40,908 nt of DNA from a virus, in IMG/VR virus record IMGVR_UViG_3300032053_000177, positions 1-40,908 of that record; one strand, given 5' to 3'. A program made the translations under genes and the position numbers. This document shows, in pieces, positions 680 to 36,625 of the stretch (within the stretch, counting starts at the first letter, position 1; every line of letters starts with the position of its first letter). The notes beneath the pieces were generated by a model. That model was not told the DNA's origin, did not search any database, and was given only the letters and a program-made list of their open reading frames with translations.

Positions 680-758
680 TGGTACACCCGGCAGGATTTG
701 AACCCGCACGTTTCCTTGGTTCGTAGCCAAGAGCACTTTCCAATTATGCTACGGGTGC
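680..758 (-). tRNA. tRNA-Arg(ACG)
   Basis: A cloverleaf with acceptor GCACCCG/CGGGTGT (G1-U72), anticodon stem CTTGG/CCAAG and loop CTACGAA, giving anticodon ACG. The T-loop is TTCAAAT and the 3' CCA is encoded. It decodes CGN arginine codons, presumably after wobble deamination of A34 by host TadA. Confidence 0.9.
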
Positions 759-767
759 ATTATTCAA

Positions 768-1244
768 TTAAGATGTTTTCGGAGCAAAGGGATCGTCTGT
801 CTGCCAAACTTCTTCTTCAACCTCTACTCTTTTTGTAACAGGTACGGATGGAGAAACAACGGTTTCTGAAAAAACCTTTTCCACTTCTTCTTCAACTTCT
901 TCTTCAACTTCTTCATCTTCTTCCTTTTCAGGAAAACAATTCTCACAAGGTTTTACAACTATATTTCCAACATCATCAAGCGTAACATCTAATTCCGTAT
1001 CACACTTTTCACAATAAAATGCTTTATCTTCGGTTATACAGTTTTGACACGGCGTGACCTTGATCTTGATATCATTGAAACTGACCTCAAGTTCTCCTTC
1101 AAGCTCTTCTGAACATACATCACAAAACATCGGAATTGTCAATCCCATTTTCTTTTCTCCTTCTTCCTTTTCATCTTCTTTTTTATCTTTCTTATCGTCT
1201 TCATCTACTACATTCACAGGATAATGAACATTATAATTTCTCAT
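768..1244 (-). CDS. Acidic protein with two tandem four-cysteine zinc modules
   Basis: 158 residues. The middle holds two similar copies of a C-x2-C ... C-x2-C module (Cys41/44/66/69 and Cys78/81/100/103), each about 30 residues with matching spacing, so the gene probably arose by internal duplication of a zinc-ribbon-like unit. The N-terminal 32 residues and the C-terminal third are strongly acidic (Glu/Asp/Lys runs) and probably disordered. The ATG at 1244 follows AAAGGAATTAT. The gene sits between two tRNA genes and probably shares their transcript. Function is unknown; a protein- or RNA-binding adaptor is possible but not shown. Confidence 0.7.
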   Translation of the reverse strand: MRNYNVHYPVNVVDEDDKKDKKEDEKEEGEKKMGLTIPMFCDVCSEELEGELEVSFNDIKIKVTPCQNCITEDKAFYCEKCDTELDVTLDDVGNIVVKPCENCFPEKEEDEEVEEEVEEEVEKVFSETVVSPSVPVTKRVEVEEEVWQTDDPFAPKTS

Positions 1245-1258
1245 ATAATTCCTTTCTT

Positions 1259-1333
1259 TGGTATCCCCGTTGGGAGTCTAACCCAAATCACCGGCTTAGG
1301 AGGCCAGTATAATATACATTATACGACAGGGAC
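1259..1333 (-). tRNA. tRNA-Arg(CCT)
   Basis: Acceptor GTCCCTG/CGGGGAT and anticodon stem CTGGC/GCCGG with loop CTCCTAA give anticodon CCT, reading AGG. CCA is encoded. The D-arm is a GTAT/ATAC hairpin whose loop lacks the usual GG dinucleotide that contacts the T-loop, which is unusual. Confidence 0.85.
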
Positions 1334-1380
1334 AAAATTCTTATTATAATAATAACATAATTTTCACTAATTGTAAACTA

Positions 1381-1458
1381 TGGTGGCCCGGAGGAGGTTC
1401 GAACTCCCATCATCCAATTACGGGAAACTTGTTTAGAAGACAAGACCGATACCGGGCT
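1381..1458 (-). tRNA. Aberrant tRNA-like gene, anticodon TCT (Arg), no D-arm
   Basis: The acceptor (AGCCCGG/CCGGGCC, A1-C72 mismatch), T-arm (loop TTCGAAC) and encoded CCA are clear. An anticodon arm CTTGT-CTTCTAA-ACAAG gives TCT. Only 7 bases separate the acceptor from the anticodon stem, so there is no D-arm, while the variable region is 19 bases and can form a short TCC/GGA hairpin. It may be a degenerate or highly unusual tRNA. Confidence 0.65.
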
Positions 1459-1486
1459 ATAATATATAGATATTATTATCAAATGA

Positions 1487-1563
1487 TGGCTGAGGGGGGT
1501 GGGTTCGAACCACCAAATCTGTTGGGTCAAAGCCAACCGTCCTGCCTATTGAACGACCCCTCA
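1487..1563 (-). tRNA. tRNA-Gln(TTG)
   Basis: Acceptor TGAGGGG/CCCCTCA with discriminator G and encoded CCA; anticodon stem GTTGG/CCAAC with loop CTTTGAC, anticodon TTG. The U1-A72 pair is typical of glutamine tRNAs. Confidence 0.92.
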
Positions 1564-1567
1564 ATAA

Positions 1568-1879
1568 TTATTCATCAACATGCTCCAGAATTATTTTTTT
1601 CTTGAATCCACCATTCTTATTATATTTCAATTTTCTTTGTCTTTCAATTGCTTGATCATCAAGATAAAAATATTCAAGATACTCATAAAATACTTCAATC
1701 AAATCAGCGAGTTCATCAATTGTTCGAACCTTCTTGAATTCTTCAAACTCTTCAATAAATTTATTGTCCAGAGCAACAAGAAAATCATAACCCTCTACTC
1801 TATGAATAGAACATTTTTTTCCACTCTGTTCAATAATTTCTGGAATACGATCACGAACAAGTTTATTATATATTTTCAT
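1568..1879 (-). CDS. MazG-like / phosphoribosyl-ATP pyrophosphohydrolase-like protein
   Basis: 103 residues starting MKIYNKLVRDRIPEII. KLVRDRIPEII is the hallmark of the small house-cleaning nucleotide pyrophosphohydrolases related to MazG and HisE (all-alpha NTP pyrophosphatase fold). The acidic helix FIEEFEEF followed by DELADLIEVF supplies the E-x2-E ... E-x2-D type metal ligands. Family members hydrolyse (d)NTPs to NMP plus pyrophosphate; here the role could be control of nucleotides or alarmones during infection (inference). The frame is open further upstream into tRNA-Gln(CTG), but the conserved start is the ATG at 1879. Confidence 0.85.
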   Translation of the reverse strand: MKIYNKLVRDRIPEIIEQSGKKCSIHRVEGYDFLVALDNKFIEEFEEFKKVRTIDELADLIEVFYEYLEYFYLDDQAIERQRKLKYNKNGGFKKKIILEHVDE

Positions 1880-1885
1880 AATCTT

Positions 1886-1959
1886 TGGCTGAGGGGGAAA
1901 GAGTTGAACTCTCATTCGTAGGGTCAGAGCCTACTGTCCTACCGTTGAACGACCCCCCA
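1886..1959 (-). tRNA. tRNA-Gln(CTG)
   Basis: Acceptor TGGGGGG/CCCCTCA with G73 and encoded CCA; anticodon stem GTAGG/CCTAC with loop CTCTGAC, anticodon CTG. It is closely similar to tRNA-Gln(TTG) at 1487-1563, so the pair probably arose by duplication. Confidence 0.92.
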
Positions 1960-1966
1960 AAAATTT

Positions 1967-2043
1967 TGGTAGCGGTGGAGAGATTCGAACTCTCATAACT
2001 TGGTTTCTAAGACCAATATGTATGCCAATTCCATCACACCGCC
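1967..2043 (-). tRNA. tRNA-Leu(TAG) with a short variable loop
   Basis: Acceptor GGCGGTG/CACCGCT, encoded CCA, anticodon stem TTGGT/ACCAA with loop CTTAGAA, anticodon TAG (reads CUA). Bacterial leucine tRNAs normally have a long class II variable arm; this one has only 5 bases (GTTAT), so charging by host LeuRS is uncertain. Confidence 0.85.
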
Positions 2044-2047
2044 AAAA

Positions 2048-2122
2048 CTAATCTTTATTTCTTAACACAATAATAAAATATATAACTAAAATAATAATTG
2101 CTATTACAAAATATAATCTCAT
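2048..2122 (-). CDS. Possible 24-residue single-span membrane peptide
   Basis: A short frame between two tRNA genes encodes a peptide with one hydrophobic helix (VIAIIILVIYFIIVL) flanked by MRLY and the charged end RNKD. AGGAAAAG precedes the ATG at good spacing and overlaps the 3' CCA end of tRNA-Glu(CTC). Hydrophobic character and the ribosome site support it, but frames this short occur by chance in AT-rich DNA. Confidence 0.4.
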   Translation of the reverse strand: MRLYFVIAIIILVIYFIIVLRNKD

Positions 2123-2129
2123 CTTTTCC

Positions 2130-2204
2130 TGGTGAACATACGGAGAATCGAACTCCGATTTTAACTTTGAGAGAGTTATGTTCTTCCAATTAAACTATAC
2201 GTTC
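2130..2204 (-). tRNA. tRNA-Glu(CTC)
   Basis: Acceptor GAACGTA/TATGTTC with A73 and encoded CCA; anticodon stem TAACT/AGTTA with loop CTCTCAA, anticodon CTC. The D-arm GTTT...GAAC and T-loop TTCGATT are normal. Confidence 0.9.
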
Positions 2205-2210
2205 AAATTT

Positions 2211-2284
2211 TGGTAGACCCACTCTGAATCGAACAGAGGTCTTTCGCTAATCGGGCGAAGGTAATTCCATTATACGATGGGTCC
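2211..2284 (-). tRNA. tRNA-Ile(GAT), odd anticodon loop
   Basis: Acceptor GGACCCA/TGGGTCT, encoded CCA, anticodon stem TTCGC/GCGAA and loop CCGATTA, read as anticodon GAT. Position 33 is C instead of the near-universal U, and position 37 is U instead of a purine, so function or identity is uncertain. Confidence 0.75.
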
Positions 2285-2290
2285 ATATTT

Positions 2291-2367
2291 TGGTGCTCCC
2301 AGTCAGAATTGAACTGACATTTCCAGATTGAAGGTCTGATTGCCTACCATTTAGCAATGATGGGAGC
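2291..2367 (-). tRNA. tRNA-Glu(TTC)
   Basis: Acceptor GCTCCCA/TGGGAGC with A73 and encoded CCA; anticodon stem TCAGA/TCTGG with loop CCTTCAA, anticodon TTC. Position 33 is C rather than U. Its 5' 24 bases overlap the 3' end of the homing endonuclease gene upstream. Confidence 0.85.
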
Positions 2368-3048
2368 ATATAAACTTTCTAATCGTAAAATATTATATTT
2401 TTCTTTTACATAATCAATCATATATTTTATATCTCTAAGATATAAAACTTTTATAACATATCCTTGATCTATCACCGATTGCGTTTTAAAGTCAACTTTT
2501 TCTTGCCAATATCCTTTTATTTCATATATAACATTATCAATTTCAAAATCAGGAAAATATTTCAATCTCTTTCCTTTATATTCATATTCAAAAATTTTAT
2601 TACATCTTTTTATATTATAACTATTATCCAAATTCCAAATCAAAAAAGCAAGTTCATATGTAGAATGACAATATATATTTTTATAATATCCACCATTACA
2701 TCTTCCTGAACCTATTCTAAAACCACCCATTCCACCTTTTCTATACTTACAATATTTATCGTTGTTATAGCACTCTTTTGAACAATATATTTTCTTATTT
2801 TCAGAAACCCAACATTCAAATTCTTTTTTACATATAGGACATTTCTTTATTATCTTTTTTCCATAATTTCTACTTCTATTTTCTGCTAAAACTTTTTCTG
2901 AATTTTTTGCCGATATACTTATTTTTCTTTTTATTTCATCAGTTTTTATTGATGAAAATCTTCTCGCACATAATTTACTACAAAAATTACCATTTGATTC
3001 TTTGCTATACTTTTCAAAAAACTCATTTCCGCATTTTTTACATATCAT
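2344..3048 (-). CDS. Free-standing homing endonuclease, PD-(D/E)XK-like, with zinc fingers
   Basis: 234 residues. The N terminus holds two Cys4-type zinc fingers (CKKCGNEF...CSKLC and CPICKKEF...CSKEC) separated by a Lys-rich segment resembling NUMOD-type DNA-binding repeats. The C-terminal half has a conserved Glu in a helix (STYELAFLIW), then YFPDFEI and IYEIKGYW, matching the E...PD...E-x-K core of PD-(D/E)XK nucleases. The start is the ATG at 3048, eight bases after AGGAGG; a GTG six bases upstream is too close to that site. The gene is wedged inside the tRNA array, and its last 23 bases plus stop lie within tRNA-Glu(TTC). It probably spreads between phage tRNA regions (inference). Confidence 0.75.
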   Translation of the reverse strand: MICKKCGNEFFEKYSKESNGNFCSKLCARRFSSIKTDEIKRKISISAKNSEKVLAENRSRNYGKKIIKKCPICKKEFECWVSENKKIYCSKECYNNDKYCKYRKGGMGGFRIGSGRCNGGYYKNIYCHSTYELAFLIWNLDNSYNIKRCNKIFEYEYKGKRLKYFPDFEIDNVIYEIKGYWQEKVDFKTQSVIDQGYVIKVLYLRDIKYMIDYVKEKYNILRLESLYAPIIAKW

Positions 3049-3131
3049 AAACACATCCTCCTATTTGTATTTATGATTTGAACCCAGAATTTTCATAATG
3101 ATTATTTTTGTCTTATAAATTATAATATTTT

Positions 3132-3209
3132 TGGGCGGGGCGAAGAGAATCGAACTCTCATAAACTCGGTCCCAAGCCGAGTGGGCAGCCAATTTACCCG
3201 CACACCCCG
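3132..3209 (-). tRNA. tRNA-Pro(TGG)
   Basis: Acceptor CGGGGTG/CGCCCCG (C1-G72, typical of proline), C73 and encoded CCA; anticodon stem CTCGG/CCGAG with loop CTTGGGA, anticodon TGG. Confidence 0.92.
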
Positions 3210-3216
3210 AAATTTT

Positions 3217-3591
3217 TTATTTTTCTATTTTCTTTCTTTTCTTTATAAACATTTTATTCATTTTTAAAATATATTTACTTACAAGTTTATTTCTTCTATC
3301 AGTGATGATCTTTATATCGTAAATTTCAGCATTCCCTGTATTTGGACAATTATCTTCTCTGTTATTCCAGGCATTATCAGTAAGAGACATAACCAAAATC
3401 TTTCTATAATCTCTTGTATGAGTATCCCAAACTATACATTTTTCAGAATCATAAAACATATTAAATGTACTTGACAATATACATTTATTACAGAAAACCA
3501 TAATTTCTTTTCTGCTTGTATTATAATCTCCCAAATGCATTGGAAGCATTGTTCCACATATCTCACATGGCTTTGAAAGTATATCACACAT
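3217..3591 (-). CDS. Hypothetical zinc-ribbon protein
   Basis: 124 residues. The N-terminal third has PCEICG (C-x2-C) and FCNKC (C-x2-C) about 25 residues apart, a zinc-ribbon arrangement. The rest is a mixed alpha/beta segment ending in a strongly basic tail (MNKMFIKKRKKIEK). The ATG at 3591 follows AAGAGAAC. It lies between tRNA-Pro and tRNA-Ala and is probably co-transcribed with them. No family recognised; nucleic-acid binding is suggested only by the ribbon and basic tail. Confidence 0.65.
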   Translation of the reverse strand: MCDILSKPCEICGTMLPMHLGDYNTSRKEIMVFCNKCILSSTFNMFYDSEKCIVWDTHTRDYRKILVMSLTDNAWNNREDNCPNTGNAEIYDIKIITDRRNKLVSKYILKMNKMFIKKRKKIEK

Positions 3592-3612
3592 AAATGTTCT
3601 CTTATAAAAATT

Positions 3613-3687
3613 TGGTGGAGCGCCGGGGATTTGAACCCCGAAAAATGCGGTGCAAGCGCATTATGATCCCAGTTTCATCAGCACCCC
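3613..3687 (-). tRNA. tRNA-Ala(TGC)
   Basis: Acceptor GGGGTGC/GCGCTCC with A73 and encoded CCA; anticodon stem ATGCG/CGCAT with loop CTTGCAC, anticodon TGC. The G3-U70 pair that defines alanine identity is present. Confidence 0.93.
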
Positions 3688-3699
3688 ATATTAAATTTT

Positions 3700-3774
3700 T
3701 GGTAGGACCGGAAGGGCTCGAACCTTCAACTGGCGGGTTAAAAGCCCGCTGTGATTCCATTTCACCACGATCCC
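3700..3774 (-). tRNA. tRNA-Lys(TTT)
   Basis: Acceptor GGGATCG/CGGTCCT with A73 and encoded CCA; anticodon stem GCGGG/CCCGC with loop CTTTTAA, anticodon TTT. Confidence 0.93.
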
Positions 3775-3782
3775 AAAATCAT

Positions 3783-3865
3783 TGGCTCTGGTGGGAGGAC
3801 TCGAACCTCCATATTAATTCCACTTGATTAACAGTCAAGTCGCCTACCAATTAGCGTACACCAGA
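3783..3865 (-). tRNA. tRNA-Asn(GTT)
   Basis: Acceptor TCTGGTG/CACCAGA with G73 and encoded CCA; anticodon stem CTTGA/TCAAG with loop CTGTTAA, anticodon GTT. The variable region is about 12 bases, longer than the usual 5 for an asparagine tRNA. Confidence 0.9.
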
Positions 3866-3872
3866 ATAAACT

Positions 3873-3956
3873 TGGTGGGGATGAGTAGAATTGAACTACC
3901 ATGCTTTCGCAACGAGTTTACAGCCCGCTGGACTCACCACACTGTCCAACATCCCC
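3873..3956 (-). tRNA. tRNA-Tyr(GTA)
   Basis: Acceptor GGGGATG/CATCCCC with A73 and encoded CCA; anticodon loop CTGTAAA, anticodon GTA. A class II variable arm (TGC-GAAA-GCA) is present, as expected for bacterial tRNA-Tyr. Confidence 0.93.
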
Positions 3957-3957
3957 A

Positions 3958-4137
3958 TTAACTTTTCTTTATTGTCCTTGACGCTTTCTTAAATTTAAAA
4001 AAAGCCGTCTTCGGTAATTCAGGATGCTCTTTCATTTTCCCTTTTCGATATGCGAGAGTAAATTTTTCCCAATCTTCTCCTACAATACCTAATTCTTTTG
4101 CAACCGATTTCCTATCAGGACATAACATTGAACCCAT
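3958..4137 (-). CDS. Small basic hypothetical protein
   Basis: 59 residues, Lys-rich, starting MGSMLCPDRKSVAKEL and ending KKASRTIKKS. The ATG at 4137 is preceded by AAGGAG at 6 bases; the longer frame upstream would run through tRNA-Thr and is not credible. The stop lies one base from the 5' end of tRNA-Tyr. No family recognised. Confidence 0.6.
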   Translation of the reverse strand: MGSMLCPDRKSVAKELGIVGEDWEKFTLAYRKGKMKEHPELPKTAFFKFKKASRTIKKS

Positions 4138-4155
4138 AACATTCTCCTTAATTTT

Positions 4156-4230
4156 TGGAGCCCCCAGACGGATTCGAACCGCCATCTAATGGGTACAGGC
4201 CATTTGTTCTTCCGATTGAACTATGAGGGC
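4156..4230 (-). tRNA. tRNA-Thr(TGT)
   Basis: Acceptor GCCCTCA/TGGGGGC with U73 and encoded CCA; anticodon stem AATGG/CCATT with loop CCTGTAC, anticodon TGT. Position 33 is C rather than U, the third such case in the array. Confidence 0.87.
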
Positions 4231-4236
4231 TAAACC

Positions 4237-4313
4237 TGGTTGCGGGTGAGAGATTTGAACTCTCGATATCATGCTTATGAGGCATGTGTCTTAGACCACT
4301 GGACGAACCCGCT
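4237..4313 (-). tRNA. tRNA-Met or tRNA-Ile2 (CAT)
   Basis: Acceptor AGCGGGT/ACCCGCA with an A1-A72 mismatch, A73 and encoded CCA; anticodon stem CATGC/GCATG with loop CTCATAA, anticodon CAT. The three G-C pairs of an initiator anticodon stem are absent, so it is either elongator Met or a lysidine-modified Ile2 tRNA; sequence alone does not decide. Confidence 0.85.
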
Positions 4314-4322
4314 ATATTATTA

Positions 4323-4544
4323 CTATCCAATCTCTTTACTTATTTCAGGGGAAAATCCCCCTAACTCTTGAAACCTTTCAACTATCCTACTTAAAATTTT
4401 TGATTCTTTTTCTAACGCATCTTGAAATTTTTGAGTATATTTTTTATCAATACTATTCCATCCAGGTGACGGTAAAAATCTATACCATCTTGCTAATTGA
4501 ACCCTATCCGCAAATTCAACTTCTTCGATTTTAGGATAATTCAT
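4323..4544 (-). CDS. Conserved-type small phage protein, function unknown
   Basis: 73 residues: MNYPKIEEVEFADRVQLARW followed by YRFLPSPGWNSIDKK and a C-terminal helix. From memory this pattern (ARWYRFLPSPG) recurs in small proteins of large tailed phages, but I know no function. The start ATG directly follows the TAA of the upstream gene with no gap, so translation is probably coupled. It is helical and contains no membrane segment. Confidence 0.65.
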   Translation of the reverse strand: MNYPKIEEVEFADRVQLARWYRFLPSPGWNSIDKKYTQKFQDALEKESKILSRIVERFQELGGFSPEISKEIG

Positions 4545-4802
4545 TTACTTCCCTTTGTATAAATTTTTTATAGTATAAAGCATACCCTTTAAAGTTTTCT
4601 TCATAATGTTACGAACAATAATATTTCCATCGTCCCAAAAAAGAATATAATCTTCATTTTCCGCATATACACCCCAAAGAAGATCATTTTTTTGAAAAAG
4701 ATTTACAGATTCTCCGTCAGGGGAAACATCCATATATTGAATACCATTCTTTTTTAGAGAATTTACTAAACGCTGTATCTTGATAGTTTCAAAATTTGAC
4801 AT
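4545..4802 (-). CDS. Small hypothetical protein
   Basis: 85 residues, starting MSNFETIKIQRLVNSLKK. A beta-rich centre (LLWGVYAENEDYILFWDDG) is flanked by Lys-rich helices. The start follows AAAAAAGGAAAATGTT. It abuts the next gene (TAA then ATG) and lies directly downstream of tRNA-Asp, so it belongs to the tRNA transcript starting near 5034. No family recognised. Confidence 0.6.
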   Translation of the reverse strand: MSNFETIKIQRLVNSLKKNGIQYMDVSPDGESVNLFQKNDLLWGVYAENEDYILFWDDGNIIVRNIMKKTLKGMLYTIKNLYKGK

Positions 4803-4820
4803 AACATTTTCCTTTTTTTA

Positions 4821-4896
4821 TGGCGGTGTCAACGGGATTTGAACCCGCATCTTCCTGATCGACAGTCAAGTGTTTTTCCAGTTAAACTATAACACC
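4821..4896 (-). tRNA. tRNA-Asp(GTC)
   Basis: Acceptor GGTGTTA/TGACACC with G73 (an aspartate identity base) and encoded CCA; anticodon stem CTTGA/TCAGG with loop CTGTCGA, anticodon GTC. It is the first tRNA after the structured leader at 4905-5014. Confidence 0.93.
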
Positions 4897-4904
4897 GAAA
4901 TTGA

Positions 4905-5014
4905 TTGGGTATTCTCCTTGGATATTATCCGTATCCAGAAAAATTGCTTCATTTATTCCCGCATGGCGCCTTCAAGGAATTGTGTCTAACAGTTCCGTAT
5001 TCCAGAACACCCAA
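4905..5014 (-). ncRNA. Structured RNA at head of tRNA transcript
   Basis: A 110-base non-coding stretch closed by an 11-bp helix (TTGGGTGTTCT with AGAATACCCAA, one G-U pair). It also contains a hairpin TGGATA-CGGATAA-TATCCA and CCTTGAAGG and GGCGCC elements. It lies between a consensus promoter and tRNA-Asp and has no credible reading frame. T4 also co-transcribes small stable RNAs (RNA C and RNA D) with its tRNAs, so this may be an analogous species. It does not fold as a tRNA. Confidence 0.55.
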
Positions 5015-5040
5015 AATCTTTTCTCATCAAATTATATCTT

Positions 5041-5069
5041 ATTATATCAGATATCAAACAACTTGTCAA
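5041..5069 (-). promoter_or_regulatory. Consensus sigma70 promoter for tRNA array
   Basis: TTGACA (5069-5064), 17-base spacer, TATAAT (5046-5041), reading left. It matches the bacterial consensus perfectly and would start RNA near 5034, upstream of the structured RNA and tRNA-Asp. It is the strongest promoter seen in the window. Confidence 0.85.
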
Positions 5070-5113
5070 GAGAAATCTTTCATAATAATATCAATAACTT
5101 ATACCATAAACAA

Positions 5114-5154
5114 AAAACCCCGAAGAACTTTTTCTACTATTCCTTCGGGGTTTT
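5114..5154 (-). terminator. Rho-independent terminator
   Basis: A 12-bp inverted repeat AAAACCCCGAAG / CTTCGGGGTTTT with a 17-base loop and a T run on the minus strand after the stem. It ends transcription of the gene at 5178-5408 and insulates the tRNA promoter. The A/T flanks make it potentially bidirectional. Confidence 0.85.
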
Positions 5155-5177
5155 CCTCATTTATCGTTTGGGGAATT

Positions 5178-5408
5178 TTATTTTTCTCCCCCCTCTGGAA
5201 TATCATGTCTATGTGTTTGTTCTGGTTTCGCCGGCACTCTTACCATCTTTGTGCAATCGGCTAAGAGCGCAAAATCTCCCTCCAAGTTATTATAATTATA
5301 AAGTGTTTGACAAATCATTTGAATTTGGTTCCTAAAACTCATAATATTTTCTGTAAGTTTCAATAAATTATCTTTCGTTTTTTCATCAATTACAATTTCG
5401 TCTACCAT
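5178..5408 (-). CDS. Small hypothetical protein, helical
   Basis: 76 residues: MVDEIVIDEKTKDNLLKL, then a long amphipathic helix, ending PAKPEQTHRHDIPEGGEK. It has its own promoter (5415-5443) and terminator (5114-5154), so it is a one-gene transcription unit, unusual here. The ATG at 5408 follows AGGATAATAAT. No family recognised. Confidence 0.6.
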   Translation of the reverse strand: MVDEIVIDEKTKDNLLKLTENIMSFRNQIQMICQTLYNYNNLEGDFALLADCTKMVRVPAKPEQTHRHDIPEGGEK

Positions 5409-5414
5409 ATTATT

Positions 5415-5443
5415 ATCCTATCATACTTATTTATAAAAGTAAA
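5415..5443 (-). promoter_or_regulatory. Promoter, TTTACT-17-TAGGAT
   Basis: A TTTACA-class promoter reading left: TTTACT at 5443-5438, 17-base spacer, TAGGAT at 5420-5415. It drives the gene at 5178-5408. The -10 box is weaker than others in the window, and the RNA would start very close to the ATG. Confidence 0.6.
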
Positions 5444-5454
5444 CATCCTTTTTT

Positions 5455-6105
5455 TTATTCCCAATACTTTATTGACGCAACCCGTTGATTCAATTCAATA
5501 TAAGTCAATCCAGATTGATCAACTCCCCATGACCCATCACTATAAAACCATTCCATCAAACCAAAAACATCTGGGGTATGAGAATGGCCTATAATATATC
5601 TACCACTGGGATAATCTTTTATAAGTTTATTTATATAAGGTTCATTCATTCTATGACCCTGAAGAAGAAACTTTTCTAATTTTCCAATCAAAGGAGTATA
5701 ATCTCCAATTTTACCTGAAATATAACTTACATATCTTGCTAATTTTCTTTCCGGTTTACCGTCAAGGGCCATATCCAAAACATCACCATGCATTATAGTA
5801 AATCCATTACATTCTAATTTCGGAAGCACAGGATTACCAAAAACACTCATTTTACGATCATGATTTCCATAAAGATATATAAAATTTTTAGTCAATATTT
5901 TTTTCACTACTTCTGGATATGCTCTTACAATATGAAAAAGATCAGTTCTCCACAAATCAAATATATCACCATTAAGAATAAGAAGATTATTTTTTACATA
6001 ATCAAGGAAACGAATAAATGCTTCTGCGTTTGGTTTAAAAGGATCATCTTTTTCACCATCTTGCATATGTAAATCGGAAACAATAAATGCTCTATCTACT
6101 TCCAT
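5455..6105 (-). CDS. Metallophosphoesterase, LpxH-like
   Basis: 216 residues with the calcineurin-like metallophosphoesterase signature: VSDLHMQ (D-x-H, residues 9-15), NGDIFDLW (GD-x2-D), YGNHDR, MHGD and GHSHTP (G-H-x-H). The pattern and length are closest to the LpxH branch (UDP-2,3-diacylglucosamine hydrolase). That does not prove lipid A chemistry; phage members of this branch also act on other phosphoesters. The ATG at 6105 follows AGGGGAAATTGAA. It lies just downstream of tRNA-Gly and is distinct from the smaller phosphoesterase at 177-668. Confidence 0.85.
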   Translation of the reverse strand: MEVDRAFIVSDLHMQDGEKDDPFKPNAEAFIRFLDYVKNNLLILNGDIFDLWRTDLFHIVRAYPEVVKKILTKNFIYLYGNHDRKMSVFGNPVLPKLECNGFTIMHGDVLDMALDGKPERKLARYVSYISGKIGDYTPLIGKLEKFLLQGHRMNEPYINKLIKDYPSGRYIIGHSHTPDVFGLMEWFYSDGSWGVDQSGLTYIELNQRVASIKYWE

Positions 6106-6118
6106 TTCAATTTCCCCT

Positions 6119-6194
6119 TGGAGCGGGTGAAGGGATTCGAACCCTCATAAACTTGATTGGCAATCAAATACCTGGGCCTTTAGGTTACACCCGC
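6119..6194 (-). tRNA. tRNA-Gly(GCC)
   Basis: Acceptor GCGGGTG/CACCCGC with U73 (a glycine identity base) and encoded CCA; D-arm ACCT/AGGT; anticodon stem TTTGA/TCAAG with loop TTGCCAA, anticodon GCC. It sits apart from the main array, upstream of the terminator at 5114-5154. Confidence 0.93.
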
Positions 6195-24685: not shown

Positions 24686-26203
24686 TTAATTCATAAGTTT
24701 CTTGTGTAACTCTTCCATTTTATCTCGTCTAACAACAACAATATTAGATTTAACTACTGGTTGTGTGGATATTTTTGGTGGAAGACCTGTATTCCATTCA
24801 GACACCTCTTCTTTTTTCTTTGCTGTATAATGATAAGAATTACATATCATTTTTTCTGCAATACAGAAAGGACCATCAATATCTGGACATGCGCATCTCA
24901 TATGATCTTTATCTACAACACTTTCTCTAATCCACTTACAATTATTGAAATCCTGTTGATCGAATTCATCAAGTTTTTGTATTTCATTATCAAATACAAC
25001 TCGCTCATCATCAACTTCAAAATTACCACATTTATGTAAAACACCAGGATCACAAAACCTACAATCAGTTCCATATACTTTTTGATTAGAACAACATTCT
25101 GAATCAGGAACTCCTTCATAAAACCATCGACAATAATGGGGATCAAAAAAATTCTTTCGATCTTTTACCATTATCTTCTTCCCGTTGTTTTCATCAGGTA
25201 ATTTTTCCCCCGCTGTCTCTGTTTTTTCAATTGACTCTTCCTCCACTTTTTCCGTTGCTTTCTGCTCAATTTTTGTGGGGGCTCCAGATCCGTTGTCTGG
25301 TTCTGCCCCTGAGCGAAAAAAGGTATTCTCTTCACTATCTCCACCGTTCCAACCACCTGAATAAACGGGAACGGGTCTTGGAGGGTTTATTTTTTCATCG
25401 GCCTCCTTTACAAAAGCATCTGAATCAAAAGTAACATCATAAATTATTTTTAATTTTCCAGGAAGAATCATTAAAGAACCACAAGCAGTTTTATACCTTA
25501 CCTGTGTTTTACTTCCTTTTTCATGAGTTACAACTGTTGAAATATTATGGTTCTGATTAATCCATGCTTCATCAGTTCCAGAAAACCCCGCAAACATTGT
25601 ATGATGAGAATGAACAACACCAATAAGAGATACACCTTCAGGAACTGTAAAATTAATATCATTAACACTTCCGGCAGTTGCTCTTTGTTCTGGAATGATA
25701 AGATCATTTACCATAAAATCATCCCCTACTCTTTCACCAACATAGTATCCCAACCATTCCTGATTTTTATACTTATTCATCAAGGCATCAATTTTCATTT
25801 TGACAATTGGTTTAAGATTTACACAAACTTCTTTGGGAGCCTTTCCACATTCCTTTACACAATCAAGTTTAACTTCCCATGAATCATCTCTTCTTGCTTC
25901 TGGAAAAGAATTTTTATGTGCCCATTTTTGCCAAGGTTCCTGATAATTACCTTGATAATTATAACCTTCCATTCTAACAACCTCCTTTGGTTTATTTCCT
26001 TCAATCTGAAATGGTAATTCCCCTTTTGGATTCAAAAAGATTTTACCCATTATTATCCTATTAACTGTTTGAACGGGCGGGATTTCATTCTGAAGTTCAA
26101 AATCAATAACTGTTTTTCCATCTCCCATCAGATAAACCCATTGTTCTTTTCCAGACTCTTTTAATTTTTTCAATTTTTCTAAACAGTCTTTTTGTATCAT
26201 CAT
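24686..26203 (-). CDS. JAMM (JAB/MPN) metalloprotease with Cys-rich C-terminal domain
   Basis: 505 residues. The zinc-protease motif is H198-S-H200 ... S208-x2-D211 (VVHSHHTMFAGFSGTDE), with the upstream Glu in GYYVGERVGD (E157): a complete JAMM active site. Residues 1-130 are a separate domain with three Cys. Residues 285-345 are a Glu/Lys/Pro linker. Residues 360-470 carry about a dozen Cys (HYCRWFY, ECCSNQ, DCRFC, RCACP, FCIAEKMIC) and probably bind several zincs. JAMM proteases remove ubiquitin-like tags. Its partners are an E1-like enzyme 10 bases upstream, an E2 candidate and a Ubl gene. The Cys-rich tail may bind targets or act as an E3-like module (speculative). Confidence 0.85.
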   Translation of the reverse strand: MMIQKDCLEKLKKLKESGKEQWVYLMGDGKTVIDFELQNEIPPVQTVNRIIMGKIFLNPKGELPFQIEGNKPKEVVRMEGYNYQGNYQEPWQKWAHKNSFPEARRDDSWEVKLDCVKECGKAPKEVCVNLKPIVKMKIDALMNKYKNQEWLGYYVGERVGDDFMVNDLIIPEQRATAGSVNDINFTVPEGVSLIGVVHSHHTMFAGFSGTDEAWINQNHNISTVVTHEKGSKTQVRYKTACGSLMILPGKLKIIYDVTFDSDAFVKEADEKINPPRPVPVYSGGWNGGDSEENTFFRSGAEPDNGSGAPTKIEQKATEKVEEESIEKTETAGEKLPDENNGKKIMVKDRKNFFDPHYCRWFYEGVPDSECCSNQKVYGTDCRFCDPGVLHKCGNFEVDDERVVFDNEIQKLDEFDQQDFNNCKWIRESVVDKDHMRCACPDIDGPFCIAEKMICNSYHYTAKKKEEVSEWNTGLPPKISTQPVVKSNIVVVRRDKMEELHKKLMN

Positions 26204-26213
26204 AACATACCTC

Positions 26214-26804
26214 TTAACTTTTTAGACTAAATAACCGATAAACTGTAGTTGAAATCTCTTCTTTTTCATATTTCATAATTTTAGCAACTGTCAATGAGGC
26301 AACAATTACAGCAGGAACAACCCATGATGGTACAATCGTATATCCATCGGGAGCCACACCCCATTCAGCGAGATCATTATTAATAGATATATGTTCCCCA
26401 TCATAACCAGCCTTTACATACTTACTTCCAAATGAGTTAGCAATTTTTTTATTTTGAACTTGAGCATCTGCAATATCAGTACAATCAACAACCCAATCAG
26501 TTTTTTTCCCCAAATGTTCCTGATACTTGAATGGTAAAGCATAAACAGTTACTTCAGGACGAAGGTGAATAATAATTGACTTTAATACTTCTGCCTTATT
26601 CGTACCTACAGCATTTTCACCAACATCAAGCCGATTACGATTATGTTCTTCAATAACATCGGGATCAAAAAGCAAAATATTTTCTATTCCAGACATTGCG
26701 CAAAATTTTCCTACCCAAAACCCAATCCCACCGCAACCAACAATAGTGATAGTTGGAGTTTTCAGATTTAATGTTTTTTGACGATCATATAAACCCGTAC
26801 TCAT
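26214..26804 (-). CDS. E1-like ThiF/MoeB-family adenylyltransferase
   Basis: 196 residues. TIVGCGGIGFWVGKFCAMSG is the glycine-rich nucleotide loop (about 19-38), followed by LLFDPDVIEEHNRNRL (ribose-binding Asp and the N-x-N-R signature), GTNKAEVLKS (conserved Lys) and WVVDCTD. These residues adenylate the C terminus of a beta-grasp protein. It lacks the CxxC zinc pairs of MoeB and an obvious transfer Cys in a crossover loop, so thioester transfer may go straight to the E2 candidate. GGGGG precedes the ATG. Operon: E2 candidate, E1, JAMM. Confidence 0.87.
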   Translation of the reverse strand: MSTGLYDRQKTLNLKTPTITIVGCGGIGFWVGKFCAMSGIENILLFDPDVIEEHNRNRLDVGENAVGTNKAEVLKSIIIHLRPEVTVYALPFKYQEHLGKKTDWVVDCTDIADAQVQNKKIANSFGSKYVKAGYDGEHISINNDLAEWGVAPDGYTIVPSWVVPAVIVASLTVAKIMKYEKEEISTTVYRLFSLKS

Positions 26805-26827
26805 AAAATAATCCCCCTTCTATATTA

Positions 26828-27757
26828 TTATCGTCTTACTTCCCAAACATCATCTACTTGTCTTGCAGGAGCAGGAGCAGGAGCAATGACTGGCGGGACA
26901 GGATTTAAAATTTCTTCTTCTGCCCAAGAGGTTCTTCTTCTTCTTGGTGATGCAATTGTACTATCAGGAATATTCAACTCATCTTTAAAATCTCTTGAAG
27001 ATACAACATATCTTTGTAACACTTCAAGACGGGGAAAACCATCAGGATTTCTATTTGCTACTGAACCTGAATTAATATTTTCGAGAACACCTTCGGCATT
27101 TCGAGCAATATCAATAAGATCCTGTGGTGATTTATATTCTTTTGGCCAAACCCATTTTCCCCAACAATCAGGCCTTGCTTGATGGTAATGAGAAAATAAT
27201 TCAAGATCAGAAACTCTACGAGTAGATACACTTGTAATGAATTTATCATCTTTTGTTGTGATCATATAATAAATATCATTTTCAAGTTTCTTTGCTTGAG
27301 ATGGTTTAATAGGTTTATGGTCAATCATAAGAGGTCTATATTTTCCACGGACCAACCATGCAACTTCACCACGCTCCCATTTAAAAACAGATAATCCTTT
27401 ACGAGCATATGAATAGTCCACTTCAGGCATCGGAGAAAGATTTTTCATTCTATCACTTAATTGTCTTTCCTTACGTTCAAATTCAGATTTCATCTGACTA
27501 ACAAGAGAAGTTACTTCATTCATCTTATTATTGATAACTTCTGAAATTGTCCCAAGTTTTTTTGTCAACTTGTCGCTATATTCTTTTCTAATTTCAGTCT
27601 CAATAGATGTTGCGTTTGCATCACCTATAACCTGAAATTTTACGATTCTTCCCCCGATCCTCATAGTAATTTGATCAAGAGAAACATCCTTTATATCTAC
27701 AGCTAACAATGCACTATTCATTTCTGTTTTTAATTGTTCAAAATCTTTTGGTGGCAT
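26828..27757 (-). CDS. Candidate E2-like protein of the Ubl operon
   Basis: 309 residues from the ATG at 27757 (GGAG 6 bases upstream; an ATG four codons earlier has no ribosome site). The N-terminal 120 residues are helical (coiled coil around LVSQMKSEFERKERQL). The middle is beta-rich (VFKWERGEVAWLVRGKYRPL), then SHYHQARPDCWGKWVWP and a helix ending ENINSGSVANRNP. The order His, then Cys-Trp-Gly, then WxP, then a helix resembles the E2 (UBC) active-site region, with the Cys as candidate nucleophile. The C-terminal tail is Pro/Ala-rich and disordered. The call rests on context plus this pattern and is tentative. Confidence 0.5.
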   Translation of the reverse strand: MPPKDFEQLKTEMNSALLAVDIKDVSLDQITMRIGGRIVKFQVIGDANATSIETEIRKEYSDKLTKKLGTISEVINNKMNEVTSLVSQMKSEFERKERQLSDRMKNLSPMPEVDYSYARKGLSVFKWERGEVAWLVRGKYRPLMIDHKPIKPSQAKKLENDIYYMITTKDDKFITSVSTRRVSDLELFSHYHQARPDCWGKWVWPKEYKSPQDLIDIARNAEGVLENINSGSVANRNPDGFPRLEVLQRYVVSSRDFKDELNIPDSTIASPRRRRTSWAEEEILNPVPPVIAPAPAPARQVDDVWEVRR

Positions 27758-27785
27758 AATATTCTCCATGTAAAGTTATATATAC

Positions 27786-27814
27786 AGTATAACATAAAAT
27801 AAAAGAAATGTAAA
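27786..27814 (-). promoter_or_regulatory. Promoter of E2-E1-JAMM operon
   Basis: TTTACA (27814-27809), 17-base spacer, TATACT (27791-27786), reading left. The RNA would start near 27779, 22 bases before the chosen ATG. Confidence 0.78.
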
Positions 27815-27825
27815 CTTTCAATAAA

Positions 27826-27860
27826 TAAAAAAGCGAAAAGAAATTTCTTTCCTTCCGCTT
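27826..27860 (-). terminator. Terminator of Ubl gene
   Basis: On the minus strand AAGCGGAAGGAAAGAAATTT pairs with the following TTTCTTTTCGCTT with small bulges and is followed by TTTTATTT. It separates the Ubl transcript from the promoter of the E2-E1-JAMM operon. Confidence 0.75.
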
Positions 27861-27910
27861 ATGCTTGGGCTGGCCCACATTTTATATGGTGACTGTATAC
27901 AGTTTATAGT

Positions 27911-28183
27911 TTAGCCAGCAACGTCAAATGCTCTGATTTCCATACGCATACCTTCGGAAACCAATTCGGGAGCTTCACTTGGCTTTACTTCTGCACCGTT
28001 CAAGAAAACACGGAACTTTCCAAAACCCGCATCTCTTGACAAACGAACACAAGTATCCTTGAAACTCGCACCTGGATCAAGAGTAATGGTAGCTCCGTTC
28101 ACTCTTGCAAATGTAGTTACATCTGCTTCGGGAGTATCAACAACCCTTTCCTCTTCTCTTGCCCAAAATCTTTGTTCTTCCAT
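27911..28183 (-). CDS. Ubiquitin-like (beta-grasp) protein ending in Gly
   Basis: 90 residues. After a polar N-terminal 25, the rest has the beta-grasp order: two strands (ARVNGATITLDPGASF), a helix (KDTCVRLSRDAGF), strands GKFRVFLNGAEV, a turn region SEAPELVSEGM and the final strand MRMEIRAFDVAG. It ends in a free C-terminal Gly, as needed for E1 adenylation without processing. AGGAGGG precedes the ATG, and the codon use is more GC-rich than its neighbours, like the HU gene, suggesting high expression. It has its own promoter and terminator, so it can be made in excess over the enzymes. A ThiS/MoaD-type sulfur carrier is the alternative. Confidence 0.72.
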   Translation of the reverse strand: MEEQRFWAREEERVVDTPEADVTTFARVNGATITLDPGASFKDTCVRLSRDAGFGKFRVFLNGAEVKPSEAPELVSEGMRMEIRAFDVAG

Positions 28184-28217: not shown

Positions 28218-28246
28218 ATTCTACTACATCCAACCTGAATTGTAAA
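28218..28246 (-). promoter_or_regulatory. Promoter of Ubl gene
   Basis: TTTACA (28246-28241), 17-base spacer, TAGAAT (28223-28218), reading left into the ubiquitin-like gene. Confidence 0.75.
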
Positions 28247-28255
28247 CATATTTTT

Positions 28256-29008
28256 TTATTCAAGCCTTGACATTACAAAATATTTCTCAGAACTATCTGA
28301 TTTTTCTAAGTAAATTAATCCCATATCTTGTTCTTTGATATATGAAATATTCAATTTGAATTGAGCATAATCATCACCAATTACAGAAAAAGCATTAATT
28401 ATATCTTTATATTCAAAATATAATGAATGATCTTCTACTTTAACTTTATCCAATTCAAAACTTAAACGATTAGAATATAGATTTGTTTTTTCAGATGCTT
28501 CCATATATATTGTATTCTTCTTTACTGAAAAATAAACCTTACCGAAAATCGGACCAATTTTTTTGATCTTACTGAAGTCCATCATAAAATCATCATCCAA
28601 CTGTCTATTATAATAATATTGAATATTTGCCCGTGGGGATTCTCTATTAAAAACTCTCACAATTTCTGTTCCACAAAAATGCATATCCATTCTCATTTTT
28701 CCACAGACAACAACAATTTTTTCAGATGATACATCTATTTCTGCGGGCTGGTCATCATCAACAAGAGCAAGAAACGGAAGAAGTTTTGTGTTAGGATCTT
28801 GAAAATTGAATGAAAAATCTTGACCATCTTTCATTTCAGGTAAAACATTATTTACATTTTGATTGATAATGGCAACAGAAGTTTGTGTATTAGAAATCAT
28901 ACCACTTTTTACAGACTTCTTAGTAAAATTTAATTGCACACTTTCAAATGAGAAATTCAATGTTGCTTTTTTTAGCAACGATTTAAATTCACCAACATTT
29001 AGTTTCAT
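28256..29008 (-). CDS. Sliding clamp (gp45-like)
   Basis: 250 residues, near T4 gp45 (228). It begins MKLNVGEFKSLLKKATLNF and shows the repeated beta-alpha-beta clamp pattern, with DDFMMDFSKIKKIGPIFG at the domain boundary and VEDHSLYFEYKDIINAFSV in the second half. It encircles DNA, tethers the polymerase at 7313 and, in T4, also activates late transcription. It is the last gene of the clamp-loader operon, with AGGAGG before the ATG. Identification is supported by the adjacent gp62- and gp44-like genes in the T4 order. Confidence 0.85.
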   Translation of the reverse strand: MKLNVGEFKSLLKKATLNFSFESVQLNFTKKSVKSGMISNTQTSVAIINQNVNNVLPEMKDGQDFSFNFQDPNTKLLPFLALVDDDQPAEIDVSSEKIVVVCGKMRMDMHFCGTEIVRVFNRESPRANIQYYYNRQLDDDFMMDFSKIKKIGPIFGKVYFSVKKNTIYMEASEKTNLYSNRLSFELDKVKVEDHSLYFEYKDIINAFSVIGDDYAQFKLNISYIKEQDMGLIYLEKSDSSEKYFVMSRLE

Positions 29009-29016
29009 ATTTCCTC

Positions 29017-29409
29017 CTATATATCATCATCTTTTTTCTTATCTGGATATTTAAAAACAATTTCTTTATCATCTATAAAACCAACCTTTTTAGATTGTAT
29101 TTCTATTATAACAGCAATTTCTAACATTTGATTTAAATCCATCTGTCCTTTAGGATAATAATTAGAACACTCTACAATAGGATCTGTTCTATTTGGTGAT
29201 AAAAAACCATCGGGAAGTTCATAATACATATCACACCATGACCTATCACCACCAAACTCTGATACTTGTAATTTAAAACATTTACATGCTGAACATAACC
29301 CATAAGACCCTTTTCGTTTTCTTGATGGGTAATCTTGAAATGCTCGTTCTAATCTTTCTTCTTCTATTTTAAAATTTGTGTTGTTTTCTCCCCTTTTTTG
29401 TATATTCAT
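29017..29409 (-). CDS. Hypothetical Cys-containing protein in clamp operon
   Basis: 130 residues. A polar N terminus is followed by GLCSACKCF (C39, C42, C44), SWCDMYY (C59) and VECSNYYP (C81), enough for one zinc site. The second half is helical (LNQMLEIAVIIEI) and ends in a Lys/Asp tail. It is inserted between the gp62-like gene (4-base overlap) and the clamp, where T4 has no such gene. No family recognised; a clamp-operon accessory is possible. Confidence 0.6.
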   Translation of the reverse strand: MNIQKRGENNTNFKIEEERLERAFQDYPSRKRKGSYGLCSACKCFKLQVSEFGGDRSWCDMYYELPDGFLSPNRTDPIVECSNYYPKGQMDLNQMLEIAVIIEIQSKKVGFIDDKEIVFKYPDKKKDDDI

Positions 29410-29762
29410 CTATTCCCCTTCCATTCCTTTTCAAGAATAGGTAGATATTTTTTCATTTCAATTTTAGAGATATTCAATCTTTCCCTTTCTTCTTCTATTT
29501 TTTCTTTTAACTTTTCATCAAATATTTCTTTCTTCTTTGTCCATTTTATATATCGTCTACCTTTTGGTGCTTTATAAAAATAGTATTTAAATACCATTTC
29601 TGGTGGAAGTTCAAATTGAATTTCGTTCACCCTGTTTACCATATCTATAAGGGCCCGATCATGGGATAACCATAAAGAAATGATATATGGTGGAAGATCG
29701 CTTTGCTTATAATTCACTTTTTTCTTTTCGAATATAGCATTTAGGACTTCAAATGCTGTCAT
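29406..29762 (-). CDS. Clamp loader small subunit (gp62-like)
   Basis: 118 residues, shorter than T4 gp62 (187). The best match is VFKYYFYKAPKGRRYIKW, corresponding to YLMAAVPRGKRYGKWAK of T4, with the same Pro-x-Gly-x-Arg-Tyr-x-Lys-Trp core. The flanks are helical. Gp62 joins four gp44 subunits to open the clamp. It overlaps gp44 upstream (ATGA) and the Cys gene downstream. The truncated C-terminal part suggests a reduced version. Confidence 0.72.
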   Translation of the reverse strand: MTAFEVLNAIFEKKKVNYKQSDLPPYIISLWLSHDRALIDMVNRVNEIQFELPPEMVFKYYFYKAPKGRRYIKWTKKKEIFDEKLKEKIEEERERLNISKIEMKKYLPILEKEWKGNR

Positions 29763-30661
29763 ACTACACCAAGTTTTAACATATATACAACCATATGCAT
29801 AAAATTTATTTCTTTTATTGCTACAATAGCATCCCTGTATAAATGTTCCCCAATGTGAATGATTGCATCCCCAGGAGATTTAAACTGATCTACGTTATCA
29901 AACATATATTGATATAGTTCTGGATAATTAATAGCAAAAGTTCGAAGATTTTTTCTTATACCTTCAAGGTCATTTACTTTCATCTGTCCTAATATTTCTT
30001 TATATATTTCATTTGATTTTTCTATTTTTATAAGATCAATGGTTTTATTTATTGTATTGTATTGCAAGGTATTTATAATTGATCGAATATCAGGATAAAG
30101 TTTTTTGATTGTATCTACAATCGCTTTCTTATTCATTACTTCGATATTTTCTTTTTCAAGTATTTTTAAACAAAACCCGAATATATCTTTTGCGGGAGGA
30201 TTTCCTAATTCAATAACTTGACAACGAGAAATAAGTTCTGGTAACAATCTGTTCCCATAATTACACATAAAAATAAATCTCGTAATTCTTTGAACAGATT
30301 CAATTAAATCTCTAAGCATTGCTTGTGCATTAATACTTAAATAATCTGCTTCATTCATTATAACAACTTTTAACTTACTTACTCCGAGAGCAGTTGCAAA
30401 TGATTTTACATTATCTCTAACATTATCTATTGACGTTTGATCAGAACAATTTATCTTCATTGAATCAAGTTTAGTCTCTTTAAGAAAGATTTCAGTGAAG
30501 GTTCCTTTACCTACTCCCGCCGGGCCCACTAATAAGATGTTAGGTTTTTCGATAATAATTTTTGCTAACCTTTCTCTTGTATCCGATGGAACGATCATTT
30601 CATTTAAAGTTCTCGGCGCATACTTAAAAGGCCAAAGCGCAGTTTCATCAAATGTTGTCAT
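29759..30661 (-). CDS. Clamp loader ATPase subunit (gp44-like)
   Basis: 300 residues from the ATG at 30661 (AAGGA upstream; the longer frame starts inside a hairpin). AAA+ motifs: WPFKYAPRTLNEMIVP at the N terminus, Walker A GPAGVGKGT (46-54), Walker B VVIMNEADYL, sensor 1 FMCNYGNR and the arginine-finger SRC motif (LISRCQVIEL). T4 gp44 is 319 residues. With gp62 it loads the clamp at primer ends. Translation is coupled to the gp62-like gene. Confidence 0.92.
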   Translation of the reverse strand: MTTFDETALWPFKYAPRTLNEMIVPSDTRERLAKIIIEKPNILLVGPAGVGKGTFTEIFLKETKLDSMKINCSDQTSIDNVRDNVKSFATALGVSKLKVVIMNEADYLSINAQAMLRDLIESVQRITRFIFMCNYGNRLLPELISRCQVIELGNPPAKDIFGFCLKILEKENIEVMNKKAIVDTIKKLYPDIRSIINTLQYNTINKTIDLIKIEKSNEIYKEILGQMKVNDLEGIRKNLRTFAINYPELYQYMFDNVDQFKSPGDAIIHIGEHLYRDAIVAIKEINFMHMVVYMLKLGVV

Positions 30662-30680
30662 TGTTTCCTTCTTTGGTGAG

Positions 30681-30705
30681 ATATGGGGGAGAATCTCCCC
30701 CATAT
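30681..30705 (-). other. Intercistronic hairpin between HU and clamp-loader genes
   Basis: A perfect inverted repeat ATATGGGGG-AGAATCT-CCCCCATAT (loop can pair further) with no T run. It lies 20 bases upstream of the gp44-like start. It may slow read-through, mark RNA processing or stabilise the upstream HU mRNA. Confidence 0.6.
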
Positions 30706-36537: not shown

Positions 36538-36625
36538 GGAAGTGTGGGCATTTGGTAGGCCGTCCTGTCTTGAAAACAGTCACCGCTAATCACGGTTGCA
36601 GGTTCGAATCCTGTCGCTTCCGCCA
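36538..36625 (+). tRNA. tRNA-Ser(TGA)
   Basis: Acceptor GGAAGTG/CGCTTCC with G73 and encoded CCA; anticodon loop CTTGAAA, anticodon TGA; a class II variable arm (CACCG ... CGGT) as expected for serine. It is the only tRNA gene on the plus strand and lies far from the main array. Confidence 0.93.

Follow-up and report, generated by a model that had tools for sequence, protein, structure and literature searches.

A probable ubiquitin-like conjugation module beside the putative sliding clamp gene of uncultured T4-like phages

Described ubiquitin-like systems and the phage module

Several ubiquitin-like protein (Ubl) pathways of bacteria, namely the type II cyclic oligonucleotide-based antiphage signaling system (CBASS) with Cap2 and Cap3, Bil and Bub, have been described as defences (PMC10097602; PMC13373217), and for Bil and Bub a role in immunity is stated as known or putative (PMC13373217). 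A further arrangement, operon type 6d, comprises stand-alone genes for a Ubl, an E2 conjugating enzyme, an E1 activating enzyme and a JAB protease, and the E2s of this type have no upstream His (Iyer, Burroughs & Aravind 2006, PMC1779556). Phages themselves encode a Ubl with a C-terminal Gly together with a JAB domain in the tail assembly proteins I and K of lambda and T1 (PMC1779556). In this study, we analyze IMG/VR record IMGVR_UViG_3300032053_000177, whose full 40,908 bases are referred to as the window, and we focus on four consecutive minus-strand genes that follow a putative sliding clamp gene in the replication region of this T4-like phage. Their products resemble a Ubl, an E2, an E1 and a JAMM metalloprotease, and together the genes probably constitute a phage-encoded pathway for Ubl conjugation and deconjugation.

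All four open reading frames (ORFs) that had been marked out in an earlier reading of the letters alone (hereafter the sequence-only reading) were recovered, and they follow the clamp gene in the order Ubl (27911-28183, 90 residues), candidate E2 (26828-27757, 309 residues, or 313 from an upstream start), E1 (26214-26804, 196 residues) and JAMM (24686-26203, 505 residues). Searches of IMG/VR with the E1, E2 and Ubl, used as single sequences and as alignments, retrieved the order gp44-gp62-clamp-Ubl-E2-E1-JAMM from about 30 independent uncultured phage contigs, with protein identities of 30-78%; nearly all contigs retrieved keep this order, cut short only where a contig stops. The recurrence of the block in this order is far beyond chance. 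When the ORFs of 26 contigs were clustered, gp44, gp62, the clamp and the four module genes were the only near-universal families, and the neighbors on both sides varied. Thus, the earlier description of a coupled four-gene set beside the clamp in a T4-like replication region is borne out by the same block in about 30 contigs.

In its layout, the module comes closest to operon type 6d, which we take to be equivalent to PRTRC. Both consist of four separate genes for a Ubl, an E2-like protein, a ThiF-type E1 and a JAB protease on mobile elements, and in both the JAB protein has an N-terminal region bearing a conserved Trp. Weak echoes of this likeness appear in profile searches (PRTRC_A on the JAMM, E 9e-4; PRTRC_ThiF on the E1, E 0.018), but the scores of 18.8 and 14.4 lie far under the respective cut-offs of 101.8 and 144.75, and the Ubl and the candidate E2 match no PRTRC model. 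The phage E2 candidate also differs from type 6d E2s in having HYH before its Cys, and the phage module is located in a replication operon, whereas PRTRC belongs to plasmid partition. A PRTRC reference was absent from pMOL30, and a cassette of this kind was found on pGSUB1 instead; an E2-like protein from a plasmid cassette of PRTRC type gave no profile match to the phage E2. The profile comparison recommended by the sequence-only reading therefore speaks against PRTRC membership, as does the absence of ParB and other PRTRC genes from the conserved block.

The resemblance to type II CBASS lies in the E1 core, which matches the PADLOC E1-E2 models (E 5e-15), in the JAMM counterpart, and in a weak E2 fold match to Cap2 (7to3). 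In contrast to type II CBASS, however, the E1 and E2 candidates are separate rather than fused, the Ubl is a separate protein, and the conserved block contains no CD-NTase; profile comparison with a Cap2 also finds nothing, so that membership in type II CBASS is not upheld. As far as sequence allows, the module appears to be a Ubl pathway, yet by the tests run a member of neither PRTRC nor CBASS. Bil and Bub show the same split of roles among Ubl, E1, E2 and JAB, but the phage protein has one Ubl domain and the conserved block holds no further partner. These two systems were set against the module through PADLOC models, and the Ubl, E2 and JAMM gave no match beyond noise in PADLOC-DB 2023, a library that may not cover all Bub families. 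The lambda and T1 proteins share the pairing of a phage-encoded Ubl, ending in Gly, with a JAB; however, E1 and E2 are not described there, and the context is that of tail genes, not replication.

In addition, tblastn with the E1 and JAMM sequences led to a separate putative set in crAss-like Steigviridae (Crassvirales; L050, L051 and L057-L063), which is conserved in nine genomes between the genes for DNA primase and uracil-DNA glycosylase. In crAss001, it comprises the consecutive genes gp79, with a Ubl-like N-terminal domain, gp78, with an invariant HSH...C, gp77, a JAMM with HSH..SGTD, and gp76, a ThiF-type E1, the assignments of gp79 as Ubl and gp78 as E2 being based on motif and gene order only; in cr106_1, the protein at the gp79 position has no Ubl-like domain. 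The order Ubl-E2-JAMM-E1 differs from that of the T4-like module, and the E2 and Ubl have no detectable profile similarity to the T4-like ones. The carriers include the cultured Bacteroides phages crAss001 and DAC15, and the genes are mostly annotated as 'thiamine biosynthesis protein', 'metalloprotease domain' or hypotheticals. The literature searched, including a survey of jumbo phages (PMC7824862), yielded no account of an E1-E2-Ubl-JAMM set encoded by a phage, and an earlier description is possible, since most subscription journals and preprints lay outside the search.

The four module proteins

The Ubl consists of a disordered N-terminal tail with a conserved Trp (W7), a beta-grasp core, and the C-terminus ...FDVAG. 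Its model, based on 25 homologues, has a bb-a-bbb topology with a core predicted local distance difference test (pLDDT) value of about 90, the strands lying at 25-28, 31-34, 57-61, 64-66 and 80-85 and the helix at 41-52. In a Foldseek comparison with the PDB, the top 50 matches were without exception of the ubiquitin-like kind (ubiquitin, ThiS and others), led by a ubiquitin-like protein of Bacteroides fragilis (E 3e-3, probability 1.00). Sequence-family searches did not recognize the protein, apart from one member that matches Pfam ThiS at E 0.054. Predicted fold and fold matches thus agree on a beta-grasp, a point on which the sequence-only reading had staked its interpretation. Its claim of a free terminal Gly also stands for the window protein, and a D-x-A-G end recurs in nearly all homologues; among the 25, A89 is invariant and G90 is present in 24. 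The motif is the exact terminus in 17 of 33 Ubls, and in the other 16 the chain continues for 1-6 residues, so that a trimming protease would be needed, a role in which the JAMM could serve.

The candidate E2 can be read from two start codons, the upstream ATG being at 27769. A GGAGAA ribosome site before the second one favors the 309-residue form; residue numbers given here follow the 313-residue frame, from which 4 is subtracted for the shorter one. An N-terminal region and a long coiled coil precede a catalytic-type domain with H194-Y-H196-x5-C202-W-G and a C-terminal tail with DVW. The HYH...CWG site is found in 32/32 complete homologues, with the spacing HxH-x5-C in most, and is followed downstream by the pattern W-P...L..I...L..IN..S.A. 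UBC enzymes have a four-strand meander, HPN-x5-C, a helix and then W-P...T...L..I..LL..PN. The model of the phage protein, built on just 24 sequences, predicts a 54-residue helix that is likely a coiled coil, strands at 126-130, 136-144, 164-173 and 177-185, an active-site loop, and a helix at 215-229. Hence, the spacing and residue pattern are closely alike, the modelled topology is compatible with UBC, and the Cys is preceded, in terms of residue pattern, by a motif of the HPN type. We think it quite likely that the 309-residue protein is an E2, and it is the weakest link in the proposed pathway.

Comparison of the candidate E2 with a viral structure library returned nothing, and no homologue was present in 50,697 annotated phage records. 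Homology to the crAss E2-like protein, the PRTRC-type E2 and Cap2 was considered and set aside, as hhalign detected none. One contig encodes a second, shorter E2 paralogue (L001:9233-9979) that keeps the HYH...CWG site and has no C-terminal Trp tail. In another (L109:9251-10200, approximate), the E2 ORF falls into two hidden Markov model pieces, reflecting either a sequencing error or decay; it is intact in the close relatives L108, L110 and L111.

The E1 is a minimal ThiF-type adenylation domain (Pfam ThiF, E 3e-22) whose nearest curated models are ThiF and MoeB. The columns invariant across 20 homologues include the arginine finger RQ8-9, GxGGxG at 23-28, D47, N55 and R58, K70, and D107 and D110 of D107-C-T-D110. 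CxxC zinc pairs are absent, as is a universally conserved Cys: C108 occurs in 28/31 sequences and is replaced by Thr in the distant L008/L009 forms. The adenylation site therefore places the protein, as judged from its residues, in the E1/ThiF/MoeB superfamily with apparently intact ATP motifs, in agreement with the sequence-only reading.

The JAMM of the window carries a full HSHHTMFAGFSGTD site (HSH at 198-200, S208 and D211), preceded by an N-terminal WE...C motif and followed by a variable Cys-rich C-terminal extension. Its own Prok-JAB match is weak (E 2e-4), but 20/20 family members match this model (best E 8e-8), and the HxH..SxxD site is present in 31/31 homologues; the zinc site thus seems complete and the protease probably active, as had been proposed. 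Outside this core the family is variable, with long N-terminal extensions in the JAMMs at L026:11487-12809 and L027:4637-6232 and Cys-rich C-terminal ones in others including that of the window. Two members match HTH_23, and zinc-finger matches turn up in individual ones.

More distant Ubl-E2-E1-JAMM sets, in the same order, are encoded by two phage contigs that lack a gp44 clamp loader gene (L008:8957-11478 and L009:1193-3852). Their E2s are colinear with the window family through the Cys, with an hhalign E of 0.002 and a probability of only about 14% from shallow profiles. Their Ubls were identified by eye from position and motif, that of L009 having DQAG and then a longer extension. A motif of the form acidic-x-Trp-small/acidic is common to the N-terminal tail of the Ubl (Trp in 27/33), the C-terminal tail of the E2 (23/24) and W109 of the JAMM (20/20), and it is also found in L008/L009. 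Since the records of L008/L009 have no gp44, the simplest partner for the motif would be another module protein, and the E1 is the one that lacks it; the motif may therefore serve docking, perhaps to the E1. The idea of a clamp-binding tag was rejected because of the same two contigs. Among 1625 ORFs scanned for further proteins with repeated Trp motifs, 13 came up, most of them unconvincing. A 186-residue protein upstream of gp44 (L052:4876-5436, JAEHCK010000102) has a C-terminal tail with several such motifs (DSVWKS, DQVWDC, KWDGGW).

Inheritance, expression signals and gene setting

In order to avoid sampling module-bearing contigs alone, searches by clamp and by gp44 were added, and each contig was scored for the module. 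When 61 lineages were placed in a gp44 tree, the module fell within one clade (support 100/97), where it is present in 29 of 38 rows and also in L047, whose contig stops just past its Ubl and which was counted as module-bearing alongside them; outside the clade, it is present in 0 of 23. About eight scattered lineages of the clade have no module, and neither E1 nor E2 was found elsewhere in their records, which are mostly fragments. The simplest history suggested by these sequences, not proven by the tree alone, is one early gain followed by several losses, and the best reading is vertical inheritance within the replication operon. The gp44 proteins of the clade are at best about 35% identical to those of isolates, and the clade has no cultured member. 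A wider genome scan with the E2 gave a single match, a T4-like phage contig (JAEHCK010000102) binned in a Thermoplasmata metagenome-assembled genome.

A conserved terminator-like hairpin with a T-run (27831..27860, minus strand) lies between the Ubl and E2 genes. A hairpin with a T-run is present in this gap in 15/24 contigs, as against 1.1 expected from shuffles, and several other contigs have a hairpin without the T-run; the corresponding counts are 0/25 for the clamp-Ubl gap and 1/20 for the E2-E1 gap. The E2, E1 and JAMM genes mostly lie within about 20 bases of each other, and the Ubl-E2 gaps mostly measure 66-150 bases. Promoter-like sites on the minus strand precede the E2 (TTTACA-17-TATACT, TG-extended, 27786..27814) and the Ubl (TTTACA-17-TAGAAT, 28218..28246). 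They are matches to the consensus only, and such sites are not more frequent than chance, with 19 as against 24.7 in shuffles. Thus, of the separate Ubl transcription unit proposed earlier, one part holds, in that a conserved hairpin sets the gene apart from those of the enzymes, but a promoter of its own is unproven. Since the clamp-Ubl gap has no terminator, the Ubl is probably also transcribed by read-through from the clamp, and the gene is likely either the last on the clamp transcript or transcribed from a start of its own. As the hairpin behind it would cut off the enzyme genes, the Ubl may be produced in larger amounts than its enzymes.

The genes upstream of the module, all on the minus strand, encode the large clamp loader subunit (gp44-like, 29759..30703; phrog_168, E 2.5e-62), the small one (gp62-like, 29406..29762; Phage_clamp_A, E 2e-9; phrog_225, E 7e-18) and the putative sliding clamp (28256..29008). 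The latter is gp45-like by position and conservation, always adjoins the Ubl upstream, and had no tblastn match in the 50,697 phage records. The T4-like nature of the window phage is also apparent from a family B DNA polymerase, a DnaB-like helicase, the small DNA-binding protein phrog_379 and an RNA ligase. It carries 17 tRNA genes, 16 of them clustered at 680-6194 on the minus strand and a lone tRNA-Ser at 36538 on the plus strand. In two contigs (L048:3775-6104 and L016:116-2404), gp44 is in two pieces about 1 kb apart, the L048 break falling around residue 110 of the family's model; this looks like an intron or an inserted endonuclease gene.

Proposed pathway, rival explanations and significance

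The computed features of the module are the Ubl fold, the intact E1 and JAMM sites, the invariant Cys and His residues of the E2 candidate, the linkage, and the confinement to one clade; what follows on E2 activity, on how the Ubl is passed along and on the kind of target is inferred. In the proposed pathway, the JAMM would trim the Ubl, where required, to ...D-x-A-G, and the minimal E1, probably as a dimer, would adenylate the Ubl C-terminus using ATP. The activated Ubl would then pass, directly or by a brief relay, to the E2-like protein at its invariant Cys202, a direct hand-over being suggested by the lack of a universally conserved Cys in the E1. The E2-like protein would attach the Ubl to target proteins at lysines or other amines, and the JAMM would take it off again. 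The position of the module in the core replication block beside the clamp, together with its restriction to one clade, suggests that phage or host proteins are acted on while replication or late transcription proceeds, and speaks less for an exchangeable anti-defence gadget. Tentatively, and at less than even odds, we propose that the complete pathway, which has relatives in unrelated phages, is a part of the replication core of a deep T4-like clade in which reversible tagging regulates the viral replisome or the late-transcription switch. Several points weigh against the conjugation pathway. No E3 was identified, and all data on the module come from metagenomic contigs. The eight or so module-free lineages within the clade indicate that it is not indispensable, and 3/33 Ubls have no exact AG end (DKAA, DVPG, DTPA). 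As for the E2, Foldseek places Cap2 (7to3), the Tsg101 UEV domain and several Ubc13 structures in the top 50 at non-significant values (E about 1, probability <=0.2), and profile searches of the PDB and Pfam with the full-length or trimmed protein return nothing. The E2 claim of the sequence-only reading therefore keeps its invariant HYH...CWG and a predicted meander and helix, but no search has given a significant E2 match.

These E2 results would also suit another explanation, in which the 309-residue protein is a coiled-coil protein that binds DNA or has a structural role, its HxH/Cys site being active in metal or redox chemistry, and the Ubl, E1 and JAMM carry out reversible adenylation or processing without conjugation; the long N-terminal coiled coil is also unusual among E2s. 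We regard this as unlikely, in that the HYH-x5-CWG spacing and the pattern that follows mirror UBC, the topology agrees, and the gene sits between the Ubl and the E1 in every complete module. A sulfur carrier pathway, in which the E1 activates a ThiS/MoaD-type Ubl to form a thiocarboxylate that serves tRNA thiolation or cofactor synthesis, while the JAMM acts as its maturation peptidase and the 309-residue protein is an accessory or acceptor, was the alternative that the sequence-only reading had named against itself. It would suit the ThiS structure 3cwi among the best Ubl fold matches, the Ubl member close to Pfam ThiS, the ThiF/MoeB models nearest to the E1, and the many tRNA genes of the phage. 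However, rhodanese, MnmA/TtuA/ThiI-like and cofactor genes are not fixed in the block, the Ubl ends in D-x-A-G with a single Gly rather than GG, and ThiS/MoaD routes have no fourth protein bearing an invariant Cys and HxH. On these grounds, such a pathway is quite improbable, and neither the conserved neighbors nor the Ubl end fit ThiS/MoaD sulfur transfer.

Two further explanations accept conjugation and differ as to its target. Because bacterial Ubl pathways are defences, a viral counterpart with a target other than the phage's own replication machinery is conceivable. It might tag or decoy immune proteins of the host, for instance components of CBASS or Bil, or it might cap a single virion protein, and several losses within the clade would suit a dispensable function in an arms race. 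Anti-defence genes, however, usually turn over and switch neighbors, whereas the module keeps its order beside the clamp across deep gp44 divergence, and its Ubl, E2 and JAMM showed no sequence similarity to the defence-system models compared; we consider this explanation rather unlikely, if less so than a non-E2 role of the 309-residue protein. The constant position of the clamp gene upstream of the Ubl evokes PCNA, as clamp ubiquitination is the classical eukaryotic case, and the phage clamp might likewise be tagged and untagged in order to switch partners. Clamp Lys201 is present in 81% of module-bearing as against 33% of module-free lineages, but lysines 14, 147, 149 and 150 are kept to about the same degree in module-free clamps, only nine such clamps were compared, and the related module of L008/L009 occurs in records without gp44. 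This lysine comparison, in which Lys201 alone differs and weakly so, yielded no convincing acceptor; the clamp was therefore dropped as the obvious substrate, and signaling of this kind has only a slight probability.

Bacterial Ubl pathways are now known mainly as anti-phage defences, and a full phage set, at a constant position in the replication operon and limited to one old clade, would mean that phages use tagging too, for their own program or against the host. It would also widen the E2-like enzymes by a family that profile libraries miss, and its four genes would make a minimal pathway that could be reconstituted. The crAss-like set, which is present in cultured phages, could open the general question to direct bench tests. 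If the tentative proposal of reversible tagging in the replication core is true, these phages would possess their own E2 and Ubl families and a counterpart of eukaryotic PCNA-type signaling, as a mirror image of bacterial Ubl immunity.

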